Positions 34,118 to 48,768 of a DNA stretch of 64,000 nt are shown here, piece by piece. The notes beneath the pieces are model-generated. The model saw only the letters and a program-made list of their open reading frames with translations, was not told the DNA's origin and did no database searches. The position numbers and the translations under genes are program-made. The stretch's first letter is position 1, and every line of letters begins with the position of its first letter. Location: assembly GCA_946403295.1 (NCBI GenBank), contig CAMIZL010000011.1:1-64000 (forward strand), in the 5' to 3' direction. Origin of the DNA: an uncultured Clostridia bacterium. Lineage in GTDB: Bacteria > Bacillota > Clostridia > Lachnospirales > Lachnospiraceae.

Positions 34118-34227
34118 CATGAAGTAGGAAATGCCCGAAATAATGCGTTTCGTAAATGCTTGTTTATGATTGATCCGTGAACCTCTCGGAAACGTTCACG
34201 GCAGGACATAGCCATAAGGAGGCAGAA

Positions 34228-36630
34228 ATGGATTTTAGCGAACTGATGAAGAATCGATTTGGCGAGCCCGCCATCATTTTGTCAGTCACGGGAGAAAAGA
34301 TTTTGCCGGTAGACATAAACGGCAGATTTCTTCCCGAAATGGGGATGAACCTTGATAAAAATGATTATCTCGCTCACGATTATCTCGAAGCGTTTACCAC
34401 GGACAGTCTGGCTACTTTCAAAAAGGCTATCGCTGATGTTTGCGCAGGCACCGAAGAGATCAGGCTCGAAACGTGGCGTCGTCTTGTTTCGAACTGCTGC
34501 GGTGAAGAGAATATATGCGTCAGAAGCCGTTTGATCGACCTCGGGGTTGAGGACGGAGTGAGGTACATATATGAAGGAGTGCGTAATGTTACGCTTGAGC
34601 ATTACCATCCCGCCGTAGATGTCGATCAAAAGGATCTGTTTGCCAAGACGGCTGAATCCAACAACATATATTATTGGGAATATACGATCGCAACCCATGA
34701 GATGCGCCCCTGTTTCAGATGCATGAGGGATCTCGGACTTCCCGCGGTTGTGAAGAATTACCCCGAACCCGCCATAGATGCCGGAATCTTTCCGCTTGAT
34801 TATGCCGATCTGTACAGAGACTGGCATCGACAGATAGAAGAGAACGGCGTGGCCGGTTTTGAGGGTGTCATCCCGCTCACGGTGGCGAGAGTCCCGTTCA
34901 GAGTCAAGCTTACCACCGAATTCGATGAAAACGGCAAACCCGTTAAGATACTCGGCTCGGCCACGATCATTCCGGAAACCGAAAAGAAGAGAAACGCGCT
35001 CGATGATTCGATCATTTCGACGCTTGCCGGCGAGTACAGCGGTATTTATCTCATAGACCTTGAAAAGGATGAAATGGAAGCCATGATCGAAGATCCGAGG
35101 CTCAAAGGTTTCATTCCGTCAAGATGTTCATATTCGAAAGAAGTGGGCAGGATCATTTCAAAATATGCCCGCTCGGCCGATGAGAATGTCGCGTTCTTTA
35201 CCAATATCAATTTCCTTCGTCGTGTGTTCTTCAAGGATGAAAAGCGCAAAGAGATGAATTTCAAGATAAGCGAGCACGGACCGTGGGCAAGACTTTCGTG
35301 CCGCGCCATAGAATATAACGAAGGCAATGTTACAAAAATGCTTGTCACATATACGCTTCTTGATGACCATCGCTCCCAGAAGCTCGATGATGACCAGACG
35401 ATCGCGCAGCAAAAGAGGGAACTTGAAGCTCGTCAGGAAAAGCTCGTTGAGGCCGTTGACGAGGCAAATCGCGCAAACCGTGCCAAGTCCGATTTCCTTG
35501 CGAAGATGTCACACGAGATCAGAACGCCCATGAACGCCATCATGGGCATGAACGAGATCATCATGAAGTCGCCCGACGTAAACGAAGAGATCCGCGGTTA
35601 TGCGACGGACGCATATCGCGCATCCGAGGGACTTCTTTCCATAATCAATGAGATCCTTGACTTCTCGAGGATCGAGAGCGGCAGGCTAGAGCTTGTGAAT
35701 GAACGTTTCGATCTGGGTGCATTCCTTTTCAGGATGTATAACATGTTCGTTATGCGTGCCGAGGGCAAAGGACTTGCTCTTTCGGTCGAGGCGGCGCAGG
35801 ATCTTCCCCGCTACGTAACAAGCGACGAGAACCGGCTTATGCAGGTACTCAACAATCTCGTGTCGAATGCGGTCAAATATACCGACAGCGGCGTCGTTGC
35901 CCTCAGGGTATCATCGGTTCCCGACGGCGAAACGGCACACCTCATTACTTTTGAGGTTGAGGACACCGGCCGCGGCATAAGGCAGGAAGATCTTTCGAAG
36001 CTTTTCCAGGCCTTCGAGAGGATAGACGTTCAAAACAACCGCAATATCGAGGGAACAGGACTCGGCCTCAATATCGCATACCGTATCGTTGAAAAGATGG
36101 ACTCGAAGCTTGAGGTTGAGAGTGAATTCGGAAGGGGAACAAGATTCTTCTTCACGGTCCGCTTCGAATGCGAGCCGTACGTCCGCATGGGCGATTTCCA
36201 TTCCTGCAACACCGTGACGAGTGGGGAAAACGAAAAGCCGATGTTTGTCAATCCCAACAAGAGGATCCTTGTGGTCGATGACAATATAGTGAATCTCAAG
36301 GTCATCAAAGCACTCCTTAAAGATTCACAGATGACGGTGATAGAGGTGACTTCGGGTGCACAGGCACTCCGCGCCGCAGCTACGCGAAAGTTCGATCTGA
36401 TCTTTATGGACCACTACATGTCGGGCATGGACGGTGTCGAGACGTTGTTCCGTATCAGGGAACAGGCGGACGGCCCGAACCACGACACACCCGTCATCGC
36501 CCTTACCGCCAACGCGATCAAGGGTGCATATGAAAAGTACAGGGAGCTCGGCTTCGTGGATGTGGTATTTAAGCCCACAACCCTTAATGACCTCAACGAT
36601 ATGCTCTGGAAATACTGCGGGGACAATTAG
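34228..36630 (+). CDS. Hybrid sensor histidine kinase with C-terminal receiver
   Basis: 800 residues with no TM segment, so cytoplasmic. An N-terminal half of about 390 residues has PAS-like sensory regions. A coiled coil (IAQQKRELEARQEKLVEAVDEANRANRA is its core) leads to HisKA with the phospho-His in FLAKMSHEIRTPMNAIMG, then HATPase_c (NLVSNAVKYTD, FEVEDTGRGI, GTGLGLNIAYRIVE). A receiver domain follows (ILVVDDNIVN, phospho-Asp in LIFMDHYMSGMDG, ALTANAI, FKP). AAGGAGGCAGAA fixes the start at 34228. There is no separate response regulator gene nearby; output presumably goes through a phosphorelay partner elsewhere. Confidence 0.92.
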   Translation: MDFSELMKNRFGEPAIILSVTGEKILPVDINGRFLPEMGMNLDKNDYLAHDYLEAFTTDSLATFKKAIADVCAGTEEIRLETWRRLVSNCCGEENICVRSRLIDLGVEDGVRYIYEGVRNVTLEHYHPAVDVDQKDLFAKTAESNNIYYWEYTIATHEMRPCFRCMRDLGLPAVVKNYPEPAIDAGIFPLDYADLYRDWHRQIEENGVAGFEGVIPLTVARVPFRVKLTTEFDENGKPVKILGSATIIPETEKKRNALDDSIISTLAGEYSGIYLIDLEKDEMEAMIEDPRLKGFIPSRCSYSKEVGRIISKYARSADENVAFFTNINFLRRVFFKDEKRKEMNFKISEHGPWARLSCRAIEYNEGNVTKMLVTYTLLDDHRSQKLDDDQTIAQQKRELEARQEKLVEAVDEANRANRAKSDFLAKMSHEIRTPMNAIMGMNEIIMKSPDVNEEIRGYATDAYRASEGLLSIINEILDFSRIESGRLELVNERFDLGAFLFRMYNMFVMRAEGKGLALSVEAAQDLPRYVTSDENRLMQVLNNLVSNAVKYTDSGVVALRVSSVPDGETAHLITFEVEDTGRGIRQEDLSKLFQAFERIDVQNNRNIEGTGLGLNIAYRIVEKMDSKLEVESEFGRGTRFFFTVRFECEPYVRMGDFHSCNTVTSGENEKPMFVNPNKRILVVDDNIVNLKVIKALLKDSQMTVIEVTSGAQALRAAATRKFDLIFMDHYMSGMDGVETLFRIREQADGPNHDTPVIALTANAIKGAYEKYRELGFVDVVFKPTTLNDLNDMLWKYCGDN

Positions 36631-36677: not shown

Positions 36678-36706
36678 TTGATATCGCCCGGGCGTTTGTG
36701 TATAAT
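36678..36706 (+). promoter_or_regulatory. Promoter of the cobalamin uptake operon
   Basis: TTGATA, 17-bp spacer and perfect TATAAT (36701-36706). Transcription should start near 36713. Confidence 0.82.
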
Positions 36707-36804
36707 ACGGGATGTTGAACAATTGAATATCGTCTGCCCCGACTCTTCCGCCTGTCGCAGTTTCCGAAAAAGTGACCGCGATAAACGGCGTCTCATAAGC
36801 GCCG

Positions 36805-36975
36805 CGCTCGACGAAAGGGGTGGGATGCGTTTCGCGTCCCTGAGAGGAAATCTCGGTGAGAATCCGTGGCAACCATCATTACTGTGATCGGATCGCAGCA
36901 TACAAAGGTCTCAGACAGGCCGAACATACTGCGGTGGTCCGTAAGTCAGAATGCTTGACGTGGCAGACAGGTGCG
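36805..36975 (+). promoter_or_regulatory. Cobalamin riboswitch
   Basis: Conserved core elements are present in order: a GGGATGCG/CGCGTCCC stem, GAGAGGAAATCTCGGTGAGA then ATCCGTGGCAACC, the ACTGTGATCGG strand, and the B12 box AAGTCAGAATGC near 36943. An intrinsic terminator follows 70 bases on. By analogy, cobalamin binding should favour termination. The genes downstream are surface proteins and an ECF transporter, so it controls vitamin capture. Ends are approximate. Confidence 0.85.
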
Positions 36976-37044
36976 GACATTTTGGACAAGGGAAATGTCG
37001 CCCGCCTGACCCATGATCGTTCTTCGTGGGTCTGTTAGGGTGAC

Positions 37045-37079
37045 CCTCTCGTCAAAGCGACGGAGGGTTATTATTTTAC
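37045..37079 (+). terminator. Riboswitch expression-platform terminator
   Basis: CCCTCTCGTC pairs with GACGGAGGG (one bulged T) around AAAGC, followed by TTATTATTTTA, 50 bases before the first start codon. Confidence 0.75.
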
Positions 37080-37127
37080 CGCACATAAAGATTTGGCAAC
37101 AAAAATAATAAAAAGAGGTGCAGTTCT

Positions 37128-37943
37128 ATGAAAAAAACAATCACAATTCTCCTTGCACTCGTAATGGTCATTGCCGCTACATGTACGGCAGTTTCGGCCG
37201 ATGAGGGCACAAAGGTTTATGTTACTATTGCCGATGACAACGGCGAGATCGTTGTTGCACGCAAATCGGTTTCCGTTAGCGACCTTGACGGTGACGGCGC
37301 TGTCACGATAAGTGATGCTCTTGCAGCTGCTCACGCAAAGTTCTATGCCGACGGAGCAGACGGATACGGCACATTTGACAGCGAATACGGCTTAAGCCTC
37401 GGAAAACTTTGGGGCGTTGAGAACGGCGGTTCGTACGGTTACTACGTAAACAACGCTTCGGCATGGAGCCTTGCGGATCCCGTCGCTGAGGGCGATCACG
37501 TATATGCTTTCGTATATACCGATCTCGCTACATGGTCGGATACATACAGCTGGTTCGAGAAGGCTTCCGTTAAGGCAGCTGCCGGCGAAGAGATCACACT
37601 TACACTTAAGTGCTCGGGCTATGACGAGAACTGGAGTCCCGTTGAGAGCGCGGTTGAAGGCGCAAAGATCCTTGTTGACGGCAAGGATACGGGCGTTGTT
37701 ACCGACGCAGACGGCAAGGCTGTCATCACTGTTGCCGACGAAGGCAGCGTGGTTATCAGCGCTACTTCCGACACAATGACACTTGTTCCCCCTGTTTGCG
37801 TTGCCAAGATCGGTGCTGCAGTTCCCGAGCTTCCCAAGACAGGTGTTACATCGACATTTGTATTTATCGGATCCGGCATTGCTCTTATTGCGGCAGGTGC
37901 TGTTGTGATCGCGAGAACAAAGAAAGAGCAGATGTCATTTTGA
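37128..37943 (+). CDS. LPXTG-anchored DUF4430-like surface protein
   Basis: 271 residues. Signal peptide 1-24 (cut after VSA). Residues 27-145 form a DUF4430/transcobalamin-C-like domain: VYVTIADDNGEIVVARKSV, then an EF-hand-like loop DLDGDGAVTISD (residues 52-63), then YGYYVNNASAWSLADPV and DHVYAFVYTD. Residues 148-230 look like an Ig-like domain. LPKTG at 235-239 followed by a hydrophobic helix and RTKK is a sortase signal, so it is wall-anchored. DUF4430 is related to the beta domain of intrinsic factor. Being first behind a cobalamin riboswitch, it probably binds cobalamin or passes it on (inference). AGAGGTG precedes the ATG. Confidence 0.85.
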   Translation: MKKTITILLALVMVIAATCTAVSADEGTKVYVTIADDNGEIVVARKSVSVSDLDGDGAVTISDALAAAHAKFYADGADGYGTFDSEYGLSLGKLWGVENGGSYGYYVNNASAWSLADPVAEGDHVYAFVYTDLATWSDTYSWFEKASVKAAAGEEITLTLKCSGYDENWSPVESAVEGAKILVDGKDTGVVTDADGKAVITVADEGSVVISATSDTMTLVPPVCVAKIGAAVPELPKTGVTSTFVFIGSGIALIAAGAVVIARTKKEQMSF

Positions 37944-37973
37944 TGACTTCGATCATTACGTTCCGAAATATTT

Positions 37974-39830
37974 ATGAAGAATAAGAAAATATTTTTACTC
38001 ATCGTCTGCCTGATAATGGCAGCGTTGTTCGGAAACAATAATGTACATGCGGATACCGTTGATGATGTGAACAACATCATCGGCGGTATTGCCATGTATA
38101 AAATGAGTGAAACCGGTGCCGGATCGCTCGGGGAATGGGCTGACGGAGCCATTTCCGACGGGGCGGGGATCGACAGCGATTCGTTCGCATATGCGTTATA
38201 TAAACTCGGACTTGCCGATGTTTCGACGTATTGCGACTCTTTAGAGCGATATGTTTCGCAGAACACGGTCCGCTCGGCCACGACGCGGCTTAAATATGCG
38301 CTTTGCCTGTGCATGAAAGACCGGACGCACGGGTATATCGCAAAGACTCTCGAGGACAGTATCGGACAACTCGGCATTATGAGCTTCGTTTACGGACAGC
38401 ATCTTGCCAACAACGGAGCGGTGGGACAGGCCTACACGCCCGAGCAGATCGCGCTCGAGATACTCGCGATGCAGCACCCCGACGGCGGCTGGTCCGTCAT
38501 GGGTCAAAACGGAGATGTGGATGTCACCGCCATGGTACTTCAGGCCCTTTCGGGCATCGGGGCCGGGGACGGTTCCGCATCCGGTAGCAATAAAGGAGAT
38601 TCGGAGTCTGCCGTGACGATCTCGCGTCCCGCTTCCGTCGAGATAGCGATCGAGAGGGGCGTCAGATTCCTTTCGGGAAAACAGAACTCCGATGGCGGAT
38701 TCTCGGGCTTCGGAAACGAAAATTCCGAAAGTACGTCGCAGGTCCTCATCGCACTTTCGTCTCTCGGGATCGATGCCGCTACGGATTCAAGATTTATCAA
38801 AGACGGAAATTCGGTCATCGACGGATTGATGAAATATGCCCTTCCGGACGGCTCGTTTGAGCACATATCGGGAGGCGGCAGCGATTCGACCGCGACCTCC
38901 CAGGCCTTTACCGCTTTTGCATCTTACATATGTTTCAGATCGGGCGAGATCTATTATCTGGTCGGATCCCCGAAAACCCGGAGCCTCGTGAGTATCGAGG
39001 CCCTCGCCGTCACATCGGACGACCCGCTTCGAACCACGCCCGGCGCGGACGGTGAGATATCCGCTGCAAGCACAGAGATCACGGCCGGTGCAGACGGTGA
39101 AACGTCCGCTGCAAGCGCAGAGGCGACGCCCGGTGCAGACACAGGGACGACGTCCGCTGCAAGCACAGAGACCATGCCCGCCGCAGACACAGAGATCTCG
39201 GCCGCCGCGGAGACGCGTGAAGAAGCGGGAGATAACATAAAGATCATACTTCTTCTTTGTGTGCTCGGACTTGCGATCGTTTCGTGTGTGCTCCTGCTTG
39301 TGTTCAAAAAGAGGAATCCGAAGAATTTCCTGTTTGTTCTTATAGTTGCCGCAGTGGCAGCAATGTTTGTATTTTTCTCGGATTTTAAGACCGAGAATGC
39401 CTATTATACCGCTGACAACAGGGTCGAAAAAGCAGTCGGGGAGGCCACGATCACGATCAGATGCGACACGATCGCGGGAGAGGGCGATTCGGAATTTATC
39501 CCGAAGGACGGGATCATCCTTGACACAACGACATATGAATTCGGGGAGGGAGACAGCGTCTACGACATACTCGTCAGGGCTGTCAGGGAGAACAAGATCC
39601 ATATGGAGAAGAAAAAAACGGGCAGCGGACCCCGTGACTATTACATATGCGGTATCGCAAACATTTACGAGTACGACTGGGGCGACCTCTCGGGTTGGAT
39701 GTACTACGTTAACGGCGAATCGCCTTCGGTCGGCTGCGGCGCATATACGGTCGAGCCCGGCGACCGCATCGAGTGGCTGTACACACGGGAGATCGGCAGA
39801 GACATCGAAGAGAGTCGGGCCGGTAATTAG
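37974..39830 (+). CDS. Transcobalamin/intrinsic-factor-like membrane protein
   Basis: 618 residues. Signal peptide 1-26. Residues 30-335 show alpha/alpha-toroid repeats of the squalene-cyclase/prenyltransferase type (DGGWSVMG at 170, DGGFSGFG at 240, DGSFEHIS at 292, each before a helix pair), the fold of the alpha domain of intrinsic factor and transcobalamin. A repetitive Ala/Thr/Glu linker (350-415) leads to two TM helices (422-443 and 451-468) joined by KKRNPK, so the C-terminus is outside again. Residues 485-605 are DUF4430: YEFGEGDSVYDILVRAV, GWMYYVNGESPSVGCGAYTV, GDRIEWLYT. Human cobalamin carriers place cobalamin between these same two domains. No clear ribosome binding site precedes the ATG. 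Confidence 0.82.
   Translation: MKNKKIFLLIVCLIMAALFGNNNVHADTVDDVNNIIGGIAMYKMSETGAGSLGEWADGAISDGAGIDSDSFAYALYKLGLADVSTYCDSLERYVSQNTVRSATTRLKYALCLCMKDRTHGYIAKTLEDSIGQLGIMSFVYGQHLANNGAVGQAYTPEQIALEILAMQHPDGGWSVMGQNGDVDVTAMVLQALSGIGAGDGSASGSNKGDSESAVTISRPASVEIAIERGVRFLSGKQNSDGGFSGFGNENSESTSQVLIALSSLGIDAATDSRFIKDGNSVIDGLMKYALPDGSFEHISGGGSDSTATSQAFTAFASYICFRSGEIYYLVGSPKTRSLVSIEALAVTSDDPLRTTPGADGEISAASTEITAGADGETSAASAEATPGADTGTTSAASTETMPAADTEISAAAETREEAGDNIKIILLLCVLGLAIVSCVLLLVFKKRNPKNFLFVLIVAAVAAMFVFFSDFKTENAYYTADNRVEKAVGEATITIRCDTIAGEGDSEFIPKDGIILDTTTYEFGEGDSVYDILVRAVRENKIHMEKKKTGSGPRDYYICGIANIYEYDWGDLSGWMYYVNGESPSVGCGAYTVEPGDRIEWLYTREIGRDIEESRAGN
39046..39205 (+). repeat. In-frame 45/48-bp repeat in the linker of the transcobalamin-like protein
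   Basis: GCTGCAAGC recurs at 39063, 39108 and 39156 (45 then 48 bp), encoding GADGETSAASAEATP-type units between the toroid and the first TM helix. Confidence 0.85.
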
Positions 39831-39870
39831 CTTGAGATCCCGTTACTGAGACAAAAGAAAGGAGGAGGCC

Positions 39871-40752
39871 GTGAAGCCGATAGAAAAATATAATCCTGCG
39901 GTTTTATTCTTATACTTCCTCCTGCTCGCGAGCATCGCCATGTTCGCGACAAATCCGGTGATGGTAGGCATCGCCTTCGCAGCCATGAACCTGACGGCCG
40001 TATCATATACGCGCGACGGGCTGGGGCGGGCATATCTGTTTTTCTTCGTTATCTTCATACTCACATCGCTCGCGAATCCGATCTTCAGTCACAACGGAGT
40101 AACCGTGCTCCTCGTTGTAAACGACAATCCGATAACGCTCGAAGCCGTGCTCTACGGCGTGATGACGGGCATCATGATCCTTTCTGTCCTTCTTCTTTTC
40201 AGGGTCTTCGGAACGCTTATGACCTCTGACCGGCTTCTCTACATTTTCGGTCGCGCTTTTCCGAAGCTCGGGCTTTTGTTGTCGATGACACTCAGGTTTG
40301 TACCGCTGTTCGGGCGACAGAGAAGGAAGATCGAAAACACGCAAAGAACGCTCGGATTATATAAGAATGAAAATGCCATCGACAACATAAAAGGAAAGCT
40401 TTCCGTTTTGTCGGCGATGACGACATGGGGTCTTGAGAACGGGATAGTCACCGCAGACAGCATGAGCGCGCGCGGATACGGAATAAAACGCACGAGAACA
40501 AGTTTCTCGATGTTCAGGTTTGAAAGGTCGGACGCCGTGATGCTCACGCTTATCATCATAAGTTGCGGCTTCATTTTTCTCGGGATCGCGATGGACAGGT
40601 TGAAAACGGATTTTTATCCGCGCATGCAACTGCCGCCGTTTTCGCTCTACGCGATCATGTGTTACGTCATATATGCGGGACTCGCTTTCCTGCCGCTCGC
40701 GGCAAAGATAAGAGACCGGATCATACAAAGAAAAGTATTCGGGCAGGAGTAA
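39871..40752 (+). CDS. ecfT: ECF transporter T component
   Basis: 293 residues, GTG start preceded by GGAGGAGGCC. EcfT is the membrane scaffold that couples two ATPases to a substrate-binding S component. It has about five to six TM helices and the cytoplasmic coupling helices with RFVPLFGRQRRKI and the SARGYG motif (ARG box). It lies 40 bp after the transcobalamin-like gene and 25 bp before the ATPase gene. The cobalamin riboswitch upstream points to a dedicated cobalamin ECF system. Confidence 0.9.
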   Translation: MKPIEKYNPAVLFLYFLLLASIAMFATNPVMVGIAFAAMNLTAVSYTRDGLGRAYLFFFVIFILTSLANPIFSHNGVTVLLVVNDNPITLEAVLYGVMTGIMILSVLLLFRVFGTLMTSDRLLYIFGRAFPKLGLLLSMTLRFVPLFGRQRRKIENTQRTLGLYKNENAIDNIKGKLSVLSAMTTWGLENGIVTADSMSARGYGIKRTRTSFSMFRFERSDAVMLTLIIISCGFIFLGIAMDRLKTDFYPRMQLPPFSLYAIMCYVIYAGLAFLPLAAKIRDRIIQRKVFGQE

Positions 40753-40777
40753 GAGGTGCACGGATGAGGAGCTACAG

Positions 40778-42436
40778 ATGGAGATAATCAGGGTTGAAGA
40801 TCTGAATTTTAAATATGCCGACGGCAAGCAGGCATTAAAGAACATCAACTTTTCCCTTGAGGAAGGTGAGATGCTCTGTTTGTGCGGCCCGACGGGCAGC
40901 GGCAAATCGACGCTTTTGCGTCTGCTGAAACGGGAGCTTTCGCCCCGCGGTGAGAAAAGCGGCAACATCTTTATTTCGGGACGCAGGCAGGATGACCTGA
41001 GCGATCGTGAGGCCGCCACCGATGTGGGATTTGTCTTCCAGCGCCCCGACATGCAGATCGTGACCGACAAAGTATGGCATGAGCTTGCTTTCGGACTTGA
41101 GAATCTGGGCGTCGGGCAGGACGAGATCAGACGCCGTGTGTGCGAGATCGCGGGTTATTTCGGAATGGAATCGTGGTTCGAGCGCAGCACGGACTCTCTT
41201 TCGGGCGGACAAAAGCAGCTCCTCAACCTCGCGTCCGTGATGGTCATGCAGCCCAAACTGCTCATTCTCGATGAGCCTGTTTCTCAGCTCGACCCGATCG
41301 CAGCTTCGGATTTCATCGCCACGATCGGGAAGCTTTGCAGGGAATTCGGCATCAGTATCATAGCCGCCGAGCAGCGCCTCGAGGAGCTCATCCCGGCATC
41401 GGACAAGCTTCTCGCGATATCGGACGGCGAGATCGCGGCGTTCGGAGAAACAAGGGAATGCGTCGGAACGCTTATCTCCAACGAGATCTTTTCCTCTTCA
41501 ATGCCCGCATCCGCAAAAATATACATGAATCTTACGGGCTCATATAAAGAAGAAAGCACGGAGCGTGGAAAAGAGCGGACGGGCGCGGCAAGCGACGGAT
41601 CCGCGACTGCGGGATTTGCGGAACTTCCCTTAAGCGTGGGGGAGGGACGAAGATTCCTCTCGGAATACATAAAAAAGCACGAATGCGCGCCGGAAGTCGT
41701 GAAAGCCGTAGATTTTGCAAAGGCGCCGGAAGCACCGGAGGACGCAAAGACTTCGGAGCATATGAAAAGATCGGAGTTAGCAAAGACGCCGGAAGACGCT
41801 CTCGAATTCAGGGAAGTGTATCTGAAATACGAAAGAAACGGCAGGGATATACTCAGGGCTCTTTCTTTCAAGGTCGGGAAAGGTGAGATATTCTGCATCC
41901 TTGGAGGAAACGGAGCCGGAAAGTCTACGGCGGTCTGTGCCGCGGCGGGACTTTTTAAGCCGTATTCGGGAAAGATAAAAGTGTTCGGAAAAGATATCCG
42001 CGACTACAGGGGGCAGGAACTTTACCGCTCATGCGTGGCAATGCTTCCGCAGGATGTTCAGACCGTATTTGTCTCGGATGACTATAACGGGCGTCATCCC
42101 TACGATCTGTCGGGCGGAGAGCAGCAGCTCGCCGCGCTTGAGATCGTGCTGAAGACCGAACCGAAACTGTTACTGCTCGATGAGCCCACGAAAGGACTCG
42201 ATGCCGGACTTGCGCAGTCCCTCAGAAAGAGGCTTAAAGAGCTTGCCGCCGGCGGGGTAACGATCGTCATCGTTTCACATGATGTCGAATTCGCCGCGTC
42301 AACGGCGGACAGATGCGCATTTTTGTTTAACGGCGAAGTCGTTTCGGTCAGCGATGCGGGCGAATTCTTTACGGGCAATTATTTCTATACGACTGCGTAT
42401 AACCGCATCACGAGAGGGATCCTAAAGAAATTTTGA
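40778..42436 (+). CDS. Fused ECF transporter ATPase (A and A' in one chain)
   Basis: 552 residues with two ABC domains. First (about 1-240): GPTGSGKST, LSGGQKQL, LLILDEPVSQLDP. Second (about 345-552): GGNGAGKST, LSGGEQQL, LLLLDEPTKGLD. EcfA and EcfA' are often separate genes; here a charged linker of about 75 residues rich in Lys, Glu and Ala (KAPEAPEDAKTSEHMKRSEL) joins them. Each half has intact Walker and signature motifs, so both can bind ATP. The fused form suits a dedicated rather than shared module. Confidence 0.93.
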   Translation: MEIIRVEDLNFKYADGKQALKNINFSLEEGEMLCLCGPTGSGKSTLLRLLKRELSPRGEKSGNIFISGRRQDDLSDREAATDVGFVFQRPDMQIVTDKVWHELAFGLENLGVGQDEIRRRVCEIAGYFGMESWFERSTDSLSGGQKQLLNLASVMVMQPKLLILDEPVSQLDPIAASDFIATIGKLCREFGISIIAAEQRLEELIPASDKLLAISDGEIAAFGETRECVGTLISNEIFSSSMPASAKIYMNLTGSYKEESTERGKERTGAASDGSATAGFAELPLSVGEGRRFLSEYIKKHECAPEVVKAVDFAKAPEAPEDAKTSEHMKRSELAKTPEDALEFREVYLKYERNGRDILRALSFKVGKGEIFCILGGNGAGKSTAVCAAAGLFKPYSGKIKVFGKDIRDYRGQELYRSCVAMLPQDVQTVFVSDDYNGRHPYDLSGGEQQLAALEIVLKTEPKLLLLDEPTKGLDAGLAQSLRKRLKELAAGGVTIVIVSHDVEFAASTADRCAFLFNGEVVSVSDAGEFFTGNYFYTTAYNRITRGILKKF

Positions 42437-42454
42437 CGGAAAGGAGCACGGGAC

Positions 42455-43141
42455 ATGGTAGTTATCGGGAATTCTGCAATCCGGAAGATCCTTAGGATCC
42501 TTATACCCTTTTTTGCGGTGCCGGCTGCGGTTCTTGCGGGCGTCTATGTGTTTGAGGACAAGATGTATGCCTATGTCTCACTCCTGATCACGATACTTTC
42601 GGTCGTGCTCTTCATCAGCGGATTTGAGCGACGCGAGACGGGCTCGAGGCGCATGGTCATCGTTGTTGTGATGACGGTCCTTGCGGTGGTAGGCCGCTTT
42701 ATCCCGGTCATCAAACCGGTTGCCGCCATAACCGTTATTGCGGGCGTATATCTCGGCGGCGAATCGGGCTTCCTTGTGGGAGCGATCACGGCCGTGATCT
42801 CCAACTTCTTCTGGGGACAGGGCCCGTGGACTCCGTTCCAGATGTTTTCGTGGGGACTCATAGGACTCGGTGCCGGGATCTTCGGAAAGTATCTTAAAAA
42901 GAATAAGCCCCTTCTTTACGCATACGGCGCGATCTCGGGGGTCCTTTTCTCGGTCATAATGGACGTCTGGACCGTTCTGTGGAACAATGAAGACTTTTCT
43001 TATGACGCTTATCTTGCCGCGATCGCATCGGCGGCACCGATGACCGTCCTCTACGCAATTTCCAACATTATCTTCCTTATACTCTGTTTTGATACTATCG
43101 GAAAAAAACTGGACAGGATCAAAACCGTGTACGGGATATAA
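42455..43141 (+). CDS. ECF transporter S component, predicted cobalamin-specific
   Basis: 228 residues with about six TM helices. The segment GGESGFLVGAITAVISNFFW followed by GQGPWTPFQMFSWGLIGLGAG is the pattern of S components predicted for cobalamin (CblS/CbrT-like). It is the last gene of the operon, 18 bp after the ATPase gene with AAGGAGCACGGGAC before its ATG. Specificity is inferred from the riboswitch and partner proteins; residues that contact the ligand cannot be seen in sequence alone. Confidence 0.82.
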   Translation: MVVIGNSAIRKILRILIPFFAVPAAVLAGVYVFEDKMYAYVSLLITILSVVLFISGFERRETGSRRMVIVVVMTVLAVVGRFIPVIKPVAAITVIAGVYLGGESGFLVGAITAVISNFFWGQGPWTPFQMFSWGLIGLGAGIFGKYLKKNKPLLYAYGAISGVLFSVIMDVWTVLWNNEDFSYDAYLAAIASAAPMTVLYAISNIIFLILCFDTIGKKLDRIKTVYGI

Positions 43142-43270: not shown

Positions 43271-44743
43271 ATGTACGAAGTTCTTGTATGGTTTCAGGGA
43301 TTGAGCATTCCCATTGCCTTCCTGACAATGCTGGTGTTTTTTCCGACGTGGAAGAACAGGATCCATGCATATCTGTTTATTTTCACGCTCTCTGTTACCG
43401 TGAATAATCTGGGCTACTTTTTGGTAATGATAGCAAACAACCCGGATGATGCTTTGTGGGCCACAAAGATCGAATATCTGGGAAAGTTGTTTATTTCCGC
43501 TGCCCTTTTGTTCTTCATGACCGAATACACGGGTGCACGCATTAGCGAATATACAAAGAGGACCGTCGTGATCATCCACGCGATAATAGGCGTTTTTGTC
43601 TTTACGTGTGAGCATCATACGATGTATTACGAGAACGGCCCGCAGTTTCGTGAGGCATGGACAACGGAGGGGCTTTATCCCCATATCGTTCATGAACACG
43701 GAATCTTCTATTATATATACGTTATGATGGTTGCCGGCTATTTGATCTTCTCGATCGTTTCGGCAGTCAGGCAGCTCCTCAATGAGCGCAGACGTAAAAG
43801 AAAAGTGCAGACAGCGATCATCATTGCCTGCGGTCTTGTTATGGTTGCCGGAATGGCAGTTTATTCGACCGGGATCCTCGGCGGATATGACGCAACCGTT
43901 ATCTCTTACCTCATCTGCCTTGTCCTTATGATCATCGCTACGATCAAGTATGACCTGATCGCGGCGCTCGATGCCGTTAAGAATTATATCGCCGACAACA
44001 TGACCGAAGGAATCGTGGCTGTCGACACCGAAGGCGCGATCATTTACAACAATGTTATTTCCGAACGCATATATCCGACGCTCAAAGACCGCGACGAAGG
44101 CGTCATATCGCAGCTTATAGAGGCGATAGATAAGGATGAAGTCATAAACATTAAGAAAAATTATTACAGAGTCGAGCAGAGCGAGCTTACGAACGAGCGC
44201 AAGAGCCTCGGCAAGCTTTACGTGATCGACGATATTACGATCGAATACAATCATAACAAGGAACTCAAGCTCCGCTCCATCACCGATGGCATGACGGGTC
44301 TGTTAAACCGTACGGAGACGCTTCGCCGCATCGAGGAATCGATGAATGCGAACGGGGTTGCCCTCGTTATGATCGATATCGATAATTTTAAGATGGTCAA
44401 CGATTCCTTCGGACATGATGTCGGCGACACCGTTATCAAGGGAGTTGCGAACATCATGCTGAATCTTACATATACAAATCCGAAGCTTTCGGCAGGTCGC
44501 TGGGGCGGCGAGGAGTTTATGCTGGTTATGCCCGGGATCCAAATCGACGAGGCTGTGGAGACGGCCGAGAAGATCCGTATGGAATTTGCGAAGACGGAAT
44601 TCCAATACGCGGGATTTAGGACTGTCAGCCTCGGAGTGACCGTATATGCCGAAGGAGACGATGCGGACGGTTTCTGCAAGAGGGCTGATGAGGCGCTCTA
44701 TATCTCCAAACAGGAAGGCAAGAACAAGGTGACCATAAAATAA
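43271..44743 (+). CDS. Membrane diguanylate cyclase
   Basis: 490 residues. About seven TM helices (residues 1-225) form a 7TM sensor of the histidine-kinase N-terminal type, followed by a PAS-like segment (about 235-320: VDTEGAIIYNN) and a GGDEF domain (325-490). The active site is intact: MIDIDNFKMVNDSFGHDVGD and GRWGGEEFMLVMPG (GGEEF). It makes cyclic di-GMP and may oppose the EAL protein at 13420. GAGGG six bases before 43271 decides between two nearby ATGs. An RxxD inhibitory site is not obvious. Confidence 0.92.
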   Translation: MYEVLVWFQGLSIPIAFLTMLVFFPTWKNRIHAYLFIFTLSVTVNNLGYFLVMIANNPDDALWATKIEYLGKLFISAALLFFMTEYTGARISEYTKRTVVIIHAIIGVFVFTCEHHTMYYENGPQFREAWTTEGLYPHIVHEHGIFYYIYVMMVAGYLIFSIVSAVRQLLNERRRKRKVQTAIIIACGLVMVAGMAVYSTGILGGYDATVISYLICLVLMIIATIKYDLIAALDAVKNYIADNMTEGIVAVDTEGAIIYNNVISERIYPTLKDRDEGVISQLIEAIDKDEVINIKKNYYRVEQSELTNERKSLGKLYVIDDITIEYNHNKELKLRSITDGMTGLLNRTETLRRIEESMNANGVALVMIDIDNFKMVNDSFGHDVGDTVIKGVANIMLNLTYTNPKLSAGRWGGEEFMLVMPGIQIDEAVETAEKIRMEFAKTEFQYAGFRTVSLGVTVYAEGDDADGFCKRADEALYISKQEGKNKVTIK

Positions 44744-46272: not shown

Positions 46273-48768
46273 ATGAAAAAACAAAAAGAAACAACAATAA
46301 ATAAAGACCTCAAAACCGCTCTGGCCGAGCTGCTTTCGGGGCGCGACGCGCGCGGCATGTCAGGGGAACCGCTTTCAGGGCGCGACGCGCGCGGCATGTC
46401 AGGGGAACCGCTTTCAGGGCGCGATGCGCGCGAGATATCGGTCGATATGATAAGAAACGTCGCTCTGTTCGATCTTTCGGACGAAGGCACCTATGTTAAG
46501 GGATGCGTTTTTCTTACGGACACATATCTCGGTATCGTCAGCGGACCCGAAGAACCCCTGCCCGAAGGTCAGGGCAGAAAGCGCGGAAAGGCTCCGGAGG
46601 TTATCGGCGGGCCGGCACAGGGACTTCCCTCACGCATAGACCGCATTTCGTTCATCGAACTTAAGAGCATTGATGACGTAAGGGCCGAAAGACTTTTCGC
46701 ATCGAGCCTTCTCACCGCTGTTGTCGCAGGTAAGGATACGTTCGTTGCGGCCTTTACCGGAATCCATACTCCGGAAATGAACACATTCATAAAGGAAGTA
46801 AAAGCGGTTCTCGGTAGCGCTGCCGGGGGCAGGAAAGCCGAAGAGGACAATGAAACTCCGGACGGGCGGCGTCCGGGCAAAGACACGGGCGACGCGAACA
46901 TAAAAGTCGAAGGTGCCGAAGAAAACCAAAAGAAGGACGTAAAAAGCGAACCGGGCACGGAAGATGCCGCACCCGTCACAAAGAAACGTACGATCTTCTC
47001 GAGAGTGTTCAGATATTTCCTGAAATACAGGATTTCTGTCGTCGTGCTTTTCTTCACATATCTTGCGTCGGCACTCATATCGATCATATGGCCTTACCTT
47101 TCGGGAAAAGTGCTTTATGACGGCGTTATCGGAAAGAACGATGAGTTTTTGGCGGACTTCGGACTTGAAGGCGAATATATGCTTGCGCTTCTCGTTCTTG
47201 TCATCTGCATGTTCGGAGCGAGAGTGCTCCAGCATGGGGTTCAGATATTGCAACAATACCTGGTCGCGAGGGTTGCCGCAAAAACCGTAAGAGATATCAA
47301 ACAGGATATATTTTCGTCGATGGGGGATCTGTCGCTCAGATTCTTTACAAGCAAGCAGACCGGCGGACTTATGACGCGTGTACGAAGTGACGCGGACAGG
47401 ATCATAGATTTCTTCCTTGACGGATTTCCCTTCCTGTTCATTCACTCCACAACCATAATCGTTACATTCATTGTAATGTTCAGACTAAATTGGCAGCTTT
47501 CGCTGCTTGCTGTCGTGCTGCTGCCGGTGCTCGTTATCCTGAGCGTTAAGCTCAAACCCGCGCTCTGGACCCTTTACGGCAAACGCCACCGCGCAGAGCG
47601 ATCCATGACAAGCAAAGTTAACGACAATCTCACCGGCGCACGCGTTGTCAAAGCGTTCGGCCGCGAGGATGAGGAGGCAACCGGTTTTTCAAAGAAGTCG
47701 GGCTCGCTTGAGACGGCCGAAGTCGACATAGTTCGTTACAACAACCGATTCACGATCCTTTACAACATGGTCAGCGAGATCTCGAACATATGGGTCTGGA
47801 TCGTCGGCGTTCTTCTTGTCATTGAGACAAAATCGATCGATCTCGGTGTGCTCGTGACGTTTGTCGGATACATCGGATCCCTTAACGGACCCATGAATTT
47901 CTTCTCATATATATTCCGTGTATGGACCGACAGCATTAATTCCGCGCAGCGTATGCTCGAGATCATAGACGCGGTGCCCGATATCAGGGAAGCGGCCGAT
48001 CCCGTACATCTTCCCGAACCTCGCGGAGAGATCGAACTTGAGCATGTGACCTTCGGCTATGAAGCTTTCAGGCCTGTGCTAAAAGATGTGTCGTTACATG
48101 TACATCCGGGCGAAGTGCTCGGAATAGTCGGACGTTCGGGAGCCGGAAAATCAACGCTCGTCAACCTTATCTCGAGGCTCTATGACACGGACGAGGGTAC
48201 GATCAAGATCGACGGTCACGACGTGCGCGACCTTGCTTTTAAGGATTTAAGGCGAAGTGTTGCGATGGTATCGCAGGATACATATATATTTATGGGATCG
48301 GTTGCGGACAACATAGCATATGCGGATAAGGAAGCTTCGCGTGACGACATAATACGTGCGGCAAAGCTGGCGGGCGCGCACGATTTCATAAGCGCGATGC
48401 CTGACGGATATGACACGATAGTCGGCGCCGGCGGCAAAGATCTTTCGGGCGGCGAGCGTCAGCGACTTTCGATAGCGCGTGCCGTTCTCGCGGATCCCAA
48501 GATCCTCATACTCGACGAGGCAACGTCGGCCGTGGATACAAAGACCGAGCAATTGATAGAAAGATCGGTTTCGCTCCTTGCCGAAGGCAGAACGACGATC
48601 TCGATAGCACACCGCCTGTCGACACTCAAAAACGCCGACAGACTCATCGTCATCGACGGCGGACAGATAGTCGAAGAAGGAACTCATGACGAACTCATGG
48701 AAAAGGAAGGCATCTATCACATGCTTTCGAACCTGCAGACGGGATTTTTGTCGCTTGAGGACATTTGA
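46273..48768 (+). CDS. ABC transporter, fused permease/ATPase, first half of a DUF1854-linked pair
   Basis: 831 residues. Residues 18-58 are 13-residue repeats (LSGRDARGMSGEP). A folded N-terminal domain (about 55-180; YVKGCVFLTDTYLGIVSG, ISFIELKSIDDV) resembles a PH-like domain, then a charged linker (185-240). The exporter TMD (about 245-550) and NBD follow, with GRSGAGKST, LSGGERQRLS and ILILDEATSAVD. Standard half-exporters are about 580 residues, so the N-terminal 240 are extra. AGGAAGCAAAC precedes the ATG. The partners at 48976 and 49579 suggest a heterodimeric exporter. Confidence 0.88.
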   Translation: MKKQKETTINKDLKTALAELLSGRDARGMSGEPLSGRDARGMSGEPLSGRDAREISVDMIRNVALFDLSDEGTYVKGCVFLTDTYLGIVSGPEEPLPEGQGRKRGKAPEVIGGPAQGLPSRIDRISFIELKSIDDVRAERLFASSLLTAVVAGKDTFVAAFTGIHTPEMNTFIKEVKAVLGSAAGGRKAEEDNETPDGRRPGKDTGDANIKVEGAEENQKKDVKSEPGTEDAAPVTKKRTIFSRVFRYFLKYRISVVVLFFTYLASALISIIWPYLSGKVLYDGVIGKNDEFLADFGLEGEYMLALLVLVICMFGARVLQHGVQILQQYLVARVAAKTVRDIKQDIFSSMGDLSLRFFTSKQTGGLMTRVRSDADRIIDFFLDGFPFLFIHSTTIIVTFIVMFRLNWQLSLLAVVLLPVLVILSVKLKPALWTLYGKRHRAERSMTSKVNDNLTGARVVKAFGREDEEATGFSKKSGSLETAEVDIVRYNNRFTILYNMVSEISNIWVWIVGVLLVIETKSIDLGVLVTFVGYIGSLNGPMNFFSYIFRVWTDSINSAQRMLEIIDAVPDIREAADPVHLPEPRGEIELEHVTFGYEAFRPVLKDVSLHVHPGEVLGIVGRSGAGKSTLVNLISRLYDTDEGTIKIDGHDVRDLAFKDLRRSVAMVSQDTYIFMGSVADNIAYADKEASRDDIIRAAKLAGAHDFISAMPDGYDTIVGAGGKDLSGGERQRLSIARAVLADPKILILDEATSAVDTKTEQLIERSVSLLAEGRTTISIAHRLSTLKNADRLIVIDGGQIVEEGTHDELMEKEGIYHMLSNLQTGFLSLEDI
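46332..46445 (+). repeat. In-frame 39-bp tandem repeat at the ABC N-terminus
   Basis: GCTTTC starts at 46332, 46371 and 46410, 39 bp apart, encoding LSGRDARGMSGEP units. Confidence 0.9.

Follow-up and report, generated by a model that had tools for sequence, protein, structure and literature searches.

The stretch of DNA analysed here (the window) comprises 64,000 nucleotides from an uncultured Clostridia bacterium of the Lachnospiraceae (GenBank assembly GCA_946403295.1, contig CAMIZL010000011.1). It lies on contig C11 of a 2.39 Mb genome that is 99% complete, and the relative found among named genomes is one metagenome-assembled genome labelled Lachnospiraceae. The window encodes, on one strand, five genes named P1 to P5 that are separated by gaps of 30, 40, 25, and 18 bases and preceded by a promoter, a leader RNA and a terminator (Table 1). 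P1 and P2 are surface-type proteins and P3 to P5 form a transporter of the energy-coupling factor (ECF) type. The locus is read here as a corrinoid salvage operon under riboswitch control, in which P1 and P2 would capture the corrinoid and the ECF transporter would import it, and we give this reading as a whole a probability of about 0.72. Comparison with related genomes establishes, at the level of sequence, the type of the riboswitch, the operon, the type of the ECF transporter, the conserved linkage of the genes, a B12-dependent methionine synthase and the absence of CbiC.

Table 1. Features of the operon in the window.
Feature	Position	Strand	Basis or remark
Sigma-70 type promoter, TTGATA-17-TATAAT	36678..36706	+	11/12 matches; just 5' of the leader RNA
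Cobalamin-riboswitch-type aptamer, divergent, short class	36796..36985	+	Leave-one-out model, covariation, conserved place
Intrinsic terminator hairpin with U-rich tail, between aptamer and P1	37039..37077	+	Folding energy
P1: signal peptide, possible DUF4430-like domain, immunoglobulin-like stretch, LPXTG anchor	37128..37943	+	LPXTG 5.5e-6, hydropathy
P2: signal peptide, alpha/alpha toroid, low-complexity linker, membrane hairpin (~424-469), C-terminal DUF4430	37974..39830	+	Profiles, hydropathy
P3: EcfT (CbrV-like)	39871..40752	+	Pfam PF02361, 29.5 bits (cut-off 25)
P4: fused EcfA-EcfA' ATPase (CbrU-like)	40778..42436	+	Pfam ABC_tran (PF00005), three stretches
P5: ECF S component (CbrT-like)	42455..43141	+	PF12822 over cut-off; CbrT 6FNP match

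The promoter, the terminator and the arrangement of five genes in one direction with short gaps stand as they were described in the initial annotation. Between 36600 and 37200 four promoter-like sites were counted on both strands, compared with a mean of 0.6 in shuffled sequences. The terminator hairpin (37036-37081) folds with -20.4 kcal/mol (z -4.6), a value that was equalled by none of 200 shuffles; a simple terminator scan did not list it, probably due to its bulge. The leader RNA had been annotated as a cobalamin-riboswitch core, and here the outcome is divided. In the window the RF00174 match (36811-36976) scores 17.1 bits against a gathering score of 31.5, none of the Rfam families attains its gathering score within the 64 kb, and RF00174 returns nothing at E <= 0.001 in the genome of the window; at E <= 10 the window element is the best candidate of this genome (E 0.038; next 2.9). 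Rfam matches to symR and CrcZ in the window were taken as chance. In contrast, a covariance model built from eight relatives, with the window left out, finds 36796-36985 with 136.9 bits (E 2.6e-31) and gives no second match in the 64 kb at E <= 1, and relatives at the same place pass the cut-off of RF00174. On the basis of these relatives the RNA of the window is assigned to the cobalamin-riboswitch type.

Within the 24 genomes of the genus, 13 RF00174 matches over the cut-off were found, twelve of which precede a P1 homologue by 54-466 nt, these distances being approximate as P1 starts were set by a simple start-codon rule. Six further elements, including that of the window, are below the cut-off and occupy the same place upstream of P1. 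Altogether 18 of 21 P1 loci of the genus have an element of the cobalamin-riboswitch type upstream (L089, a second copy of the G018 locus, was dropped from this count), and in 15 of these 18 P2 follows downstream on the same contig, in G018 at a distance of 3.8 kb; the contigs end or P2 is located elsewhere in G007 and G015. The elements fall into two alignment classes, a short one that includes the window and a longer one. These classes are clearly different and are found at the same place before P1 in species of one genus (L034-L053). Three members of the short class (from G013, G023, and G005) reach 47 bits with RF00174. In the short class, 14 of 27 pairs have changed on both sides compared with 6.0 in shuffles, and 95.7% of the cells are paired compared with 84.0% when shuffled and 30-49% when slid, with the consensus structure derived from the same alignment on which pairing was scored. 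The place in the genus, the covariation and the leave-one-out detection lend good support to the initial proposal of riboswitch control of the operon. As a putative off-switch, the leader RNA would leave the terminator unformed at low intracellular cobalamin, resulting in transcription of the operon.

The three transporter genes were likewise identified correctly at the outset: EcfT, the fused EcfA-A' and the S component match PF02361, PF00005, and PF12822, all over the Pfam cut-offs, and a search of the five proteins with Pfam and NCBIfam recovered LPXTG, DUF4430, EcfT, ABC ATPases and an S component. The best NCBIfam match of P4 is an ECF ATPase equivalog (290.7 bits, under the cut-off of 315), and its three ABC_tran stretches are read as two putative ATPase domains. 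A complete group I ECF set, i.e., EcfT, two ABC ATPase domains and an S component, is thereby encoded together. The best solved match of the S-component profile is CbrT (6FNP, 4.7e-18; 5.6e-7 with the single sequence), followed by chain 4hzu at 0.008. As described in PMC5997447, 6FNP is ECF-CbrT, a cobalamin transporter, and the S component is the substrate binder in ECF transporters. The S component of the window is thus nearest to CbrT and is accompanied by an EcfT and a fused EcfA-A' of its own, an arrangement also seen in the CbrVUT set on a Lactobacillus plantarum plasmid, whereas two surface proteins and a cobalamin-type riboswitch are added here. In L. delbrueckii, by contrast, eight S components including CbrT were predicted to share one ECF module, as stated in part of the same source (PMC5997447). 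The L. plantarum plasmid, pMF1298-5, carries a related ECF set together with DUF4430, and cobS is located about 4 kb off with one transposase gene between. Passages of the plasmid report name CbrV, CbrU, and CbrT after Rodionov 2009 and also list NrdJ, CobA, CblT, CblS, CobS, and CobC (PMC6722938).

The metabolic context of the genus was analyzed for both the need for and the synthesis of cobalamin. A B12-binding domain is present in 23 of the 24 genus genomes. In the genome of the window the only such match is an 817-residue methionine synthase MetH, with homocysteine, pterin and B12-binding domains, encoded beside MTHFR. CbiC, a marker of corrin ring synthesis, was found in 0 of 24 genus genomes compared with 7 of 14 named genomes used as control, CbiC being the one cobalamin synthesis gene searched. 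As B12-binding domains are present and CbiC is absent, the genus appears to consist of corrinoid salvagers. The genome of the window also encodes one FecCD permease, with a similarity to BtuC below the cut-off and located away from the RF00174 candidates, and no FecCD match over the cut-off was obtained in five of the 24 genus genomes, some of which are incomplete. The permease gene of the window's genome lies on contig C1 (~275993-279922; L133:2994-6923), where it and an ABC ATPase gene immediately precede genes for a NifH/CfbC-like protein and a protein like nitrogenase component 1, i.e., a nitrogenase-like cluster with its own transporter. The nearness of the S component to CbrT, the B12-binding domains without CbiC and the linkage across the family described below all speak for the import of a corrinoid, as initially proposed, and on these comparisons corrinoid import under a cobalamin-type riboswitch is judged very probable.

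Of the two surface proteins, P2 agrees with its initial description as a membrane protein with toroid and DUF4430. Its C-terminal DUF4430 is matched by Pfam with 2.5e-17, and DUF4430 was found in all 21 scanned proteins of the P2 type; the toroid is below the Pfam cut-off in the window protein and was recognised by the P2 profile, which matches squalene-hopene cyclases. PF01122, which we take to be the eukaryotic cobalamin-binding protein family, was not among the ten families listed for P2 of the window at E <= 1; for the other P2-type proteins the first 25 of 75 families were seen. The underlying alignment (A3) has 21 rows, i.e., the window, 19 of 23 P2 frames of relatives and L. curvatus, with the partial frames L073, L078, L080, and L088 left out. 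Hydropathy analysis revealed a signal peptide and two membrane helices (424-442 and 451-469) with a basic loop between them, from which, by the positive-inside rule, both toroid and DUF4430 of P2 are expected to be located outside. Animal B12 carriers, namely transcobalamin, intrinsic factor and haptocorrin, have a toroid, and P2 has the same order of toroid followed by a C-terminal domain of the DUF4430 type. It differs from this family by the membrane hairpin between the two domains and by the lack of a sequence match to their structures. A passage of PMC4350170 places DUF4430 at the C-terminus of animal transcobalamins, in line with the relationship invoked by the initial annotation. Cys588 of DUF4430 was considered as cobalt ligand and rejected, as several DUF4430 proteins, that of the L. 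plantarum plasmid among them, have Ala, Ser or a different residue at this position. Structure matches of the DUF4430 profile (E 0.49 and worse) were taken as chance, and AlphaFold models from two-row alignments were set aside (mean predicted local distance difference test, pLDDT, of 39 for P2 and 42 for P1).

P1 was initially described as an LPXTG protein with a DUF4430-like domain. The LPXTG anchor is over the cut-off, whereas the likeness to DUF4430 is weak: a profile-profile comparison gave a collinear match with E 0.0067 and a probability of 5.7%, compared with 0.25 for an unrelated control. P1 homologues were compared in an alignment (A5) of 19 of the 21 P1 loci, L071 and L085 being left out for an uncertain start or a contig end.

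The genes of the operon are linked beyond the window. P2 homologues are present in 23 of 24 genus genomes, and among 22 P2 loci of relatives EcfT is encoded within 860 bases of P2 in 20, and contig ends truncate the remaining two. In 14 of the 22 the S gene follows downstream in the same orientation and in one it is divergent, and P1 lies directly 5' of P2 in 16. Genes inserted between P4 and P5 or between P1 and P2 (metallo-beta-lactamase, DUF218, esterase, nucleoside hydrolase, DUF3842, Peripla_BP_2, and others) were considered as parts of the system and not counted, as they recur in only few genomes.

At the level of the family, 150 genomes were surveyed, in which DUF4430 is present in 76 and RF00174 (E <= 0.01) in 131. 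Within 10 kb downstream and on the same strand of one of the 150 best RF00174 riboswitches, a list made with stricter filters, 25 of 113 DUF4430 sites were found (the window's own site excluded); two sites lie near one of these riboswitches in another arrangement, one of them being also among the 25, and for 54 of the 113 sites the genome contains one of these 150 riboswitches. When 20 such loci were examined, a single one per genome from all 21 genomes with co-located sites except G146, DUF4430, EcfT, EcfAA' and S component were all present in nine. In loci L090-L097 the cobalamin riboswitch is followed by a small DUF4430 protein (frames of 135-159 amino acids, one of 251), with a lone, weakly S-like protein in six of the eight; these possibly constitute a second, simpler version of the system. 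Starting from the S component, orthologues were found in 38 of 150 family genomes, and DUF4430 is encoded on the same strand within 10 kb at 34 of 38 S sites outside the window. RF00174 over the cut-off is present upstream of nine of 24 newly checked S sites and at ten already listed, i.e., at at least 19 of 38; the ten were read by eye from listings (in G146 at about 13 kb from the S gene), and G057, G007, G104, and G123 were outside the check. In the 24 checked loci no other riboswitch family was among the matches listed at E <= 0.05. The co-occurrence across Lachnospiraceae that the initial annotation proposed as a check is thereby observed, and at phylum level the S profile matches 90 of 299 genomes.

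DUF4430 genes are also found near cobalamin-related elements in more distant bacteria. In the actinobacterium Collinsella, a DUF4430 gene lies behind an AdoCbl-II-like element that scores 32.9 of 36.5 bits. On the C. aerofaciens plasmid record (L111:3269-8243) the element is followed by a protein of 1,264 residues that contains several stretches of the DUF4430 type and by a second DUF4430 protein, and no ECF genes are annotated beside these proteins. The gene rtpR presumably encodes a B12-dependent ribonucleotide reductase. A DUF4430 gene of L. rhamnosus adjoins rtpR, as seen from an excerpt of PMC9963975.

Taken together, P2, anchored in the membrane by a hairpin with toroid and DUF4430 outside, would act with the wall-anchored or secreted P1 to bind a corrinoid at the cell surface and pass it to the S component, and EcfT, EcfAA' and the CbrT-like S component would import cobalamin or a precursor. 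Surface capture by P1 and P2 with hand-over to the transporter is plausible and is given somewhat better than even odds. A number of observations weigh against the reading of the operon as a whole, in addition to the low RF00174 score of the window element. P1 is not on the stretch examined around P2 in five of the 22 loci of relatives and is 3.8 kb away in G018, where DUF3842, Peripla_BP_2 and Na+/H+ antiporter-type genes lie between (L079:5465-9255). In G009 one contig carries the riboswitch and P1 and another carries P2 and the ECF genes, the latter contig having no RF00174 match among those listed; P1 is followed there by two purine-synthesis-type genes, IMP cyclohydrolase and AICARFT (L084 contig C179, L070 contig C146). 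Three of the 21 P1 loci (G020, G010, and G019) have no riboswitch element; in G020, a close relative, the operon is complete, but the short stretch that separates P1 from the kinase gene upstream contains no riboswitch (L067:7700-7900). No RF00174 was found upstream of 15 of the 24 newly checked S sites. The LPXTG anchor was matched in only nine of 19 P1 homologues, Pfam found DUF4430 at E <= 0.1 in none of the 19, and structures of transcobalamin and intrinsic factor were matched neither by the P2 sequence nor by the P2 profile nor by the DUF4430 profile. The FecCD permease, a possible second importer by its similarity to BtuC, and the restriction of the synthesis search to CbiC count on the same side.

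Alternatively, the ECF part might import a corrinoid and P1 and P2 might be structural, adhesin-like or assembly proteins, or binders of a B12 carrier protein. Toroid and DUF4430 are found also in surface-type proteins outside ECF operons, such as in a Vescimonas locus with dockerin proteins and in L099, and P1 is not always beside P2. However, P2, or toroid and DUF4430 proteins that are split, accompany ECF genes across genera, and DUF4430 genes lie behind cobalamin riboswitches even where this ECF set is not on the stretch examined, as in L090-L097. We consider a role other than corrinoid binding rather unlikely, and capture by P1 and P2 remains the preferred reading.

The substrate is addressed by an operon of Latilactobacillus curvatus with the same gene order (LPXTG-DUF4430-EcfT-EcfAA'-S). 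Here the toroid is part of the LPXTG protein and DUF4430 part of the next protein, and this separation on two proteins of one operon suggests that toroid and DUF4430 work together. No cobalamin riboswitch was found within the 16 kb examined, which again counts against a corrinoid. As the S component of this operon is 54% identical to L. plantarum CbrT and about 30% identical to that of the window, homology of the S component does not fix the substrate; the riboswitch and the metabolic context carry most of the substrate assignment. We take the heme ECF genes of L. sakei to be the counterpart of the L. curvatus operon. An ECF system of L. sakei was reported for heme, as cited in PMC7299338 and PMC7872071, and LhaSTA is a heme ECF system according to sections of the former (PMC7299338). 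The Latilactobacillus operon thus resembles that of the window in gene order and in the presence of toroid and DUF4430, and differs by the missing cobalamin riboswitch and by heme as the reported substrate of the L. sakei system. In analogy, the operon of the window might import heme or another tetrapyrrole, the riboswitch merely tying it to methionine or tetrapyrrole status. This is improbable in view of the cobalamin-type riboswitches at 18 of 21 P1 loci of the genus and, in the family, at no fewer than 19 of the 38 other S sites, of MetH without CbiC, and of CbrT as the nearest solved S component. The score of just 17.1 bits in the window could indicate that the leader RNA resembles RF00174 by chance and that the operon is not under cobalamin control; this is hardly credible beside the conserved place, the covariation, the leave-one-out detection and the three members of the same class at 47 bits.

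The initial annotation knew of no characterised example of such a system. For the ECF part this needs qualification: it is of a known kind, as CbrVUT was named (PMC6722938) and the L. sakei heme ECF system was reported, and an annotation name for a lipoprotein component of a cobalamin ECF transporter is already in use. In a table of PMC9963975, L. rhamnosus K8Q211 is named 'additional lipoprotein component of putative cobalamin ECF transporter', a name that foreshadows a further surface protein acting together with such a transporter; the comparison is by this table name, and the DUF4430 protein LGG_02295 is listed there separately with function unknown. For the combination of toroid and DUF4430, no bacterial cobalamin binder of this kind was found described in the open PMC literature searched; Rodionov 2009 and Verplaetse 2020 might hold one. 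A functional analogy may exist to BtuG of Bacteroides, in that capture at the surface would precede the importer, whereas BtuG, as portrayed in part of PMC6143338, is a surface lipoprotein of a Gram-negative organism and works with BtuB.

The operon is flanked by genes for a hybrid histidine kinase (34177-36630) and a GGDEF protein (43274-44743), and the flanking position of both is conserved in the close relatives L061, L062, L063, and L067. Further downstream, the N-terminus of an ABC exporter (46273-48768) contains near-identical tandem copies of a short peptide (~46333-46434).

It is a tentative further step, less likely than the capture role itself, to regard P2 as a true membrane-anchored bacterial relative of intrinsic factor and transcobalamin, in which the corrinoid would be held between toroid and DUF4430 and delivered to the S component. 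If true, this would constitute a capture step for ECF transporters, none of which was found described in the literature searched, and P2 might be related to the animal B12 carriers or represent their bacterial source, which bears on the origin of animal B12-binding proteins. A capture role would supply a function for DUF4430, whose name marks it only as a domain of unknown function. A dedicated layer of extracellular capture that shares the domain architecture of the animal carriers would change the picture of the S component as the substrate binder, and it would help to explain the competition for B12 among Gram-positive gut and rumen bacteria.

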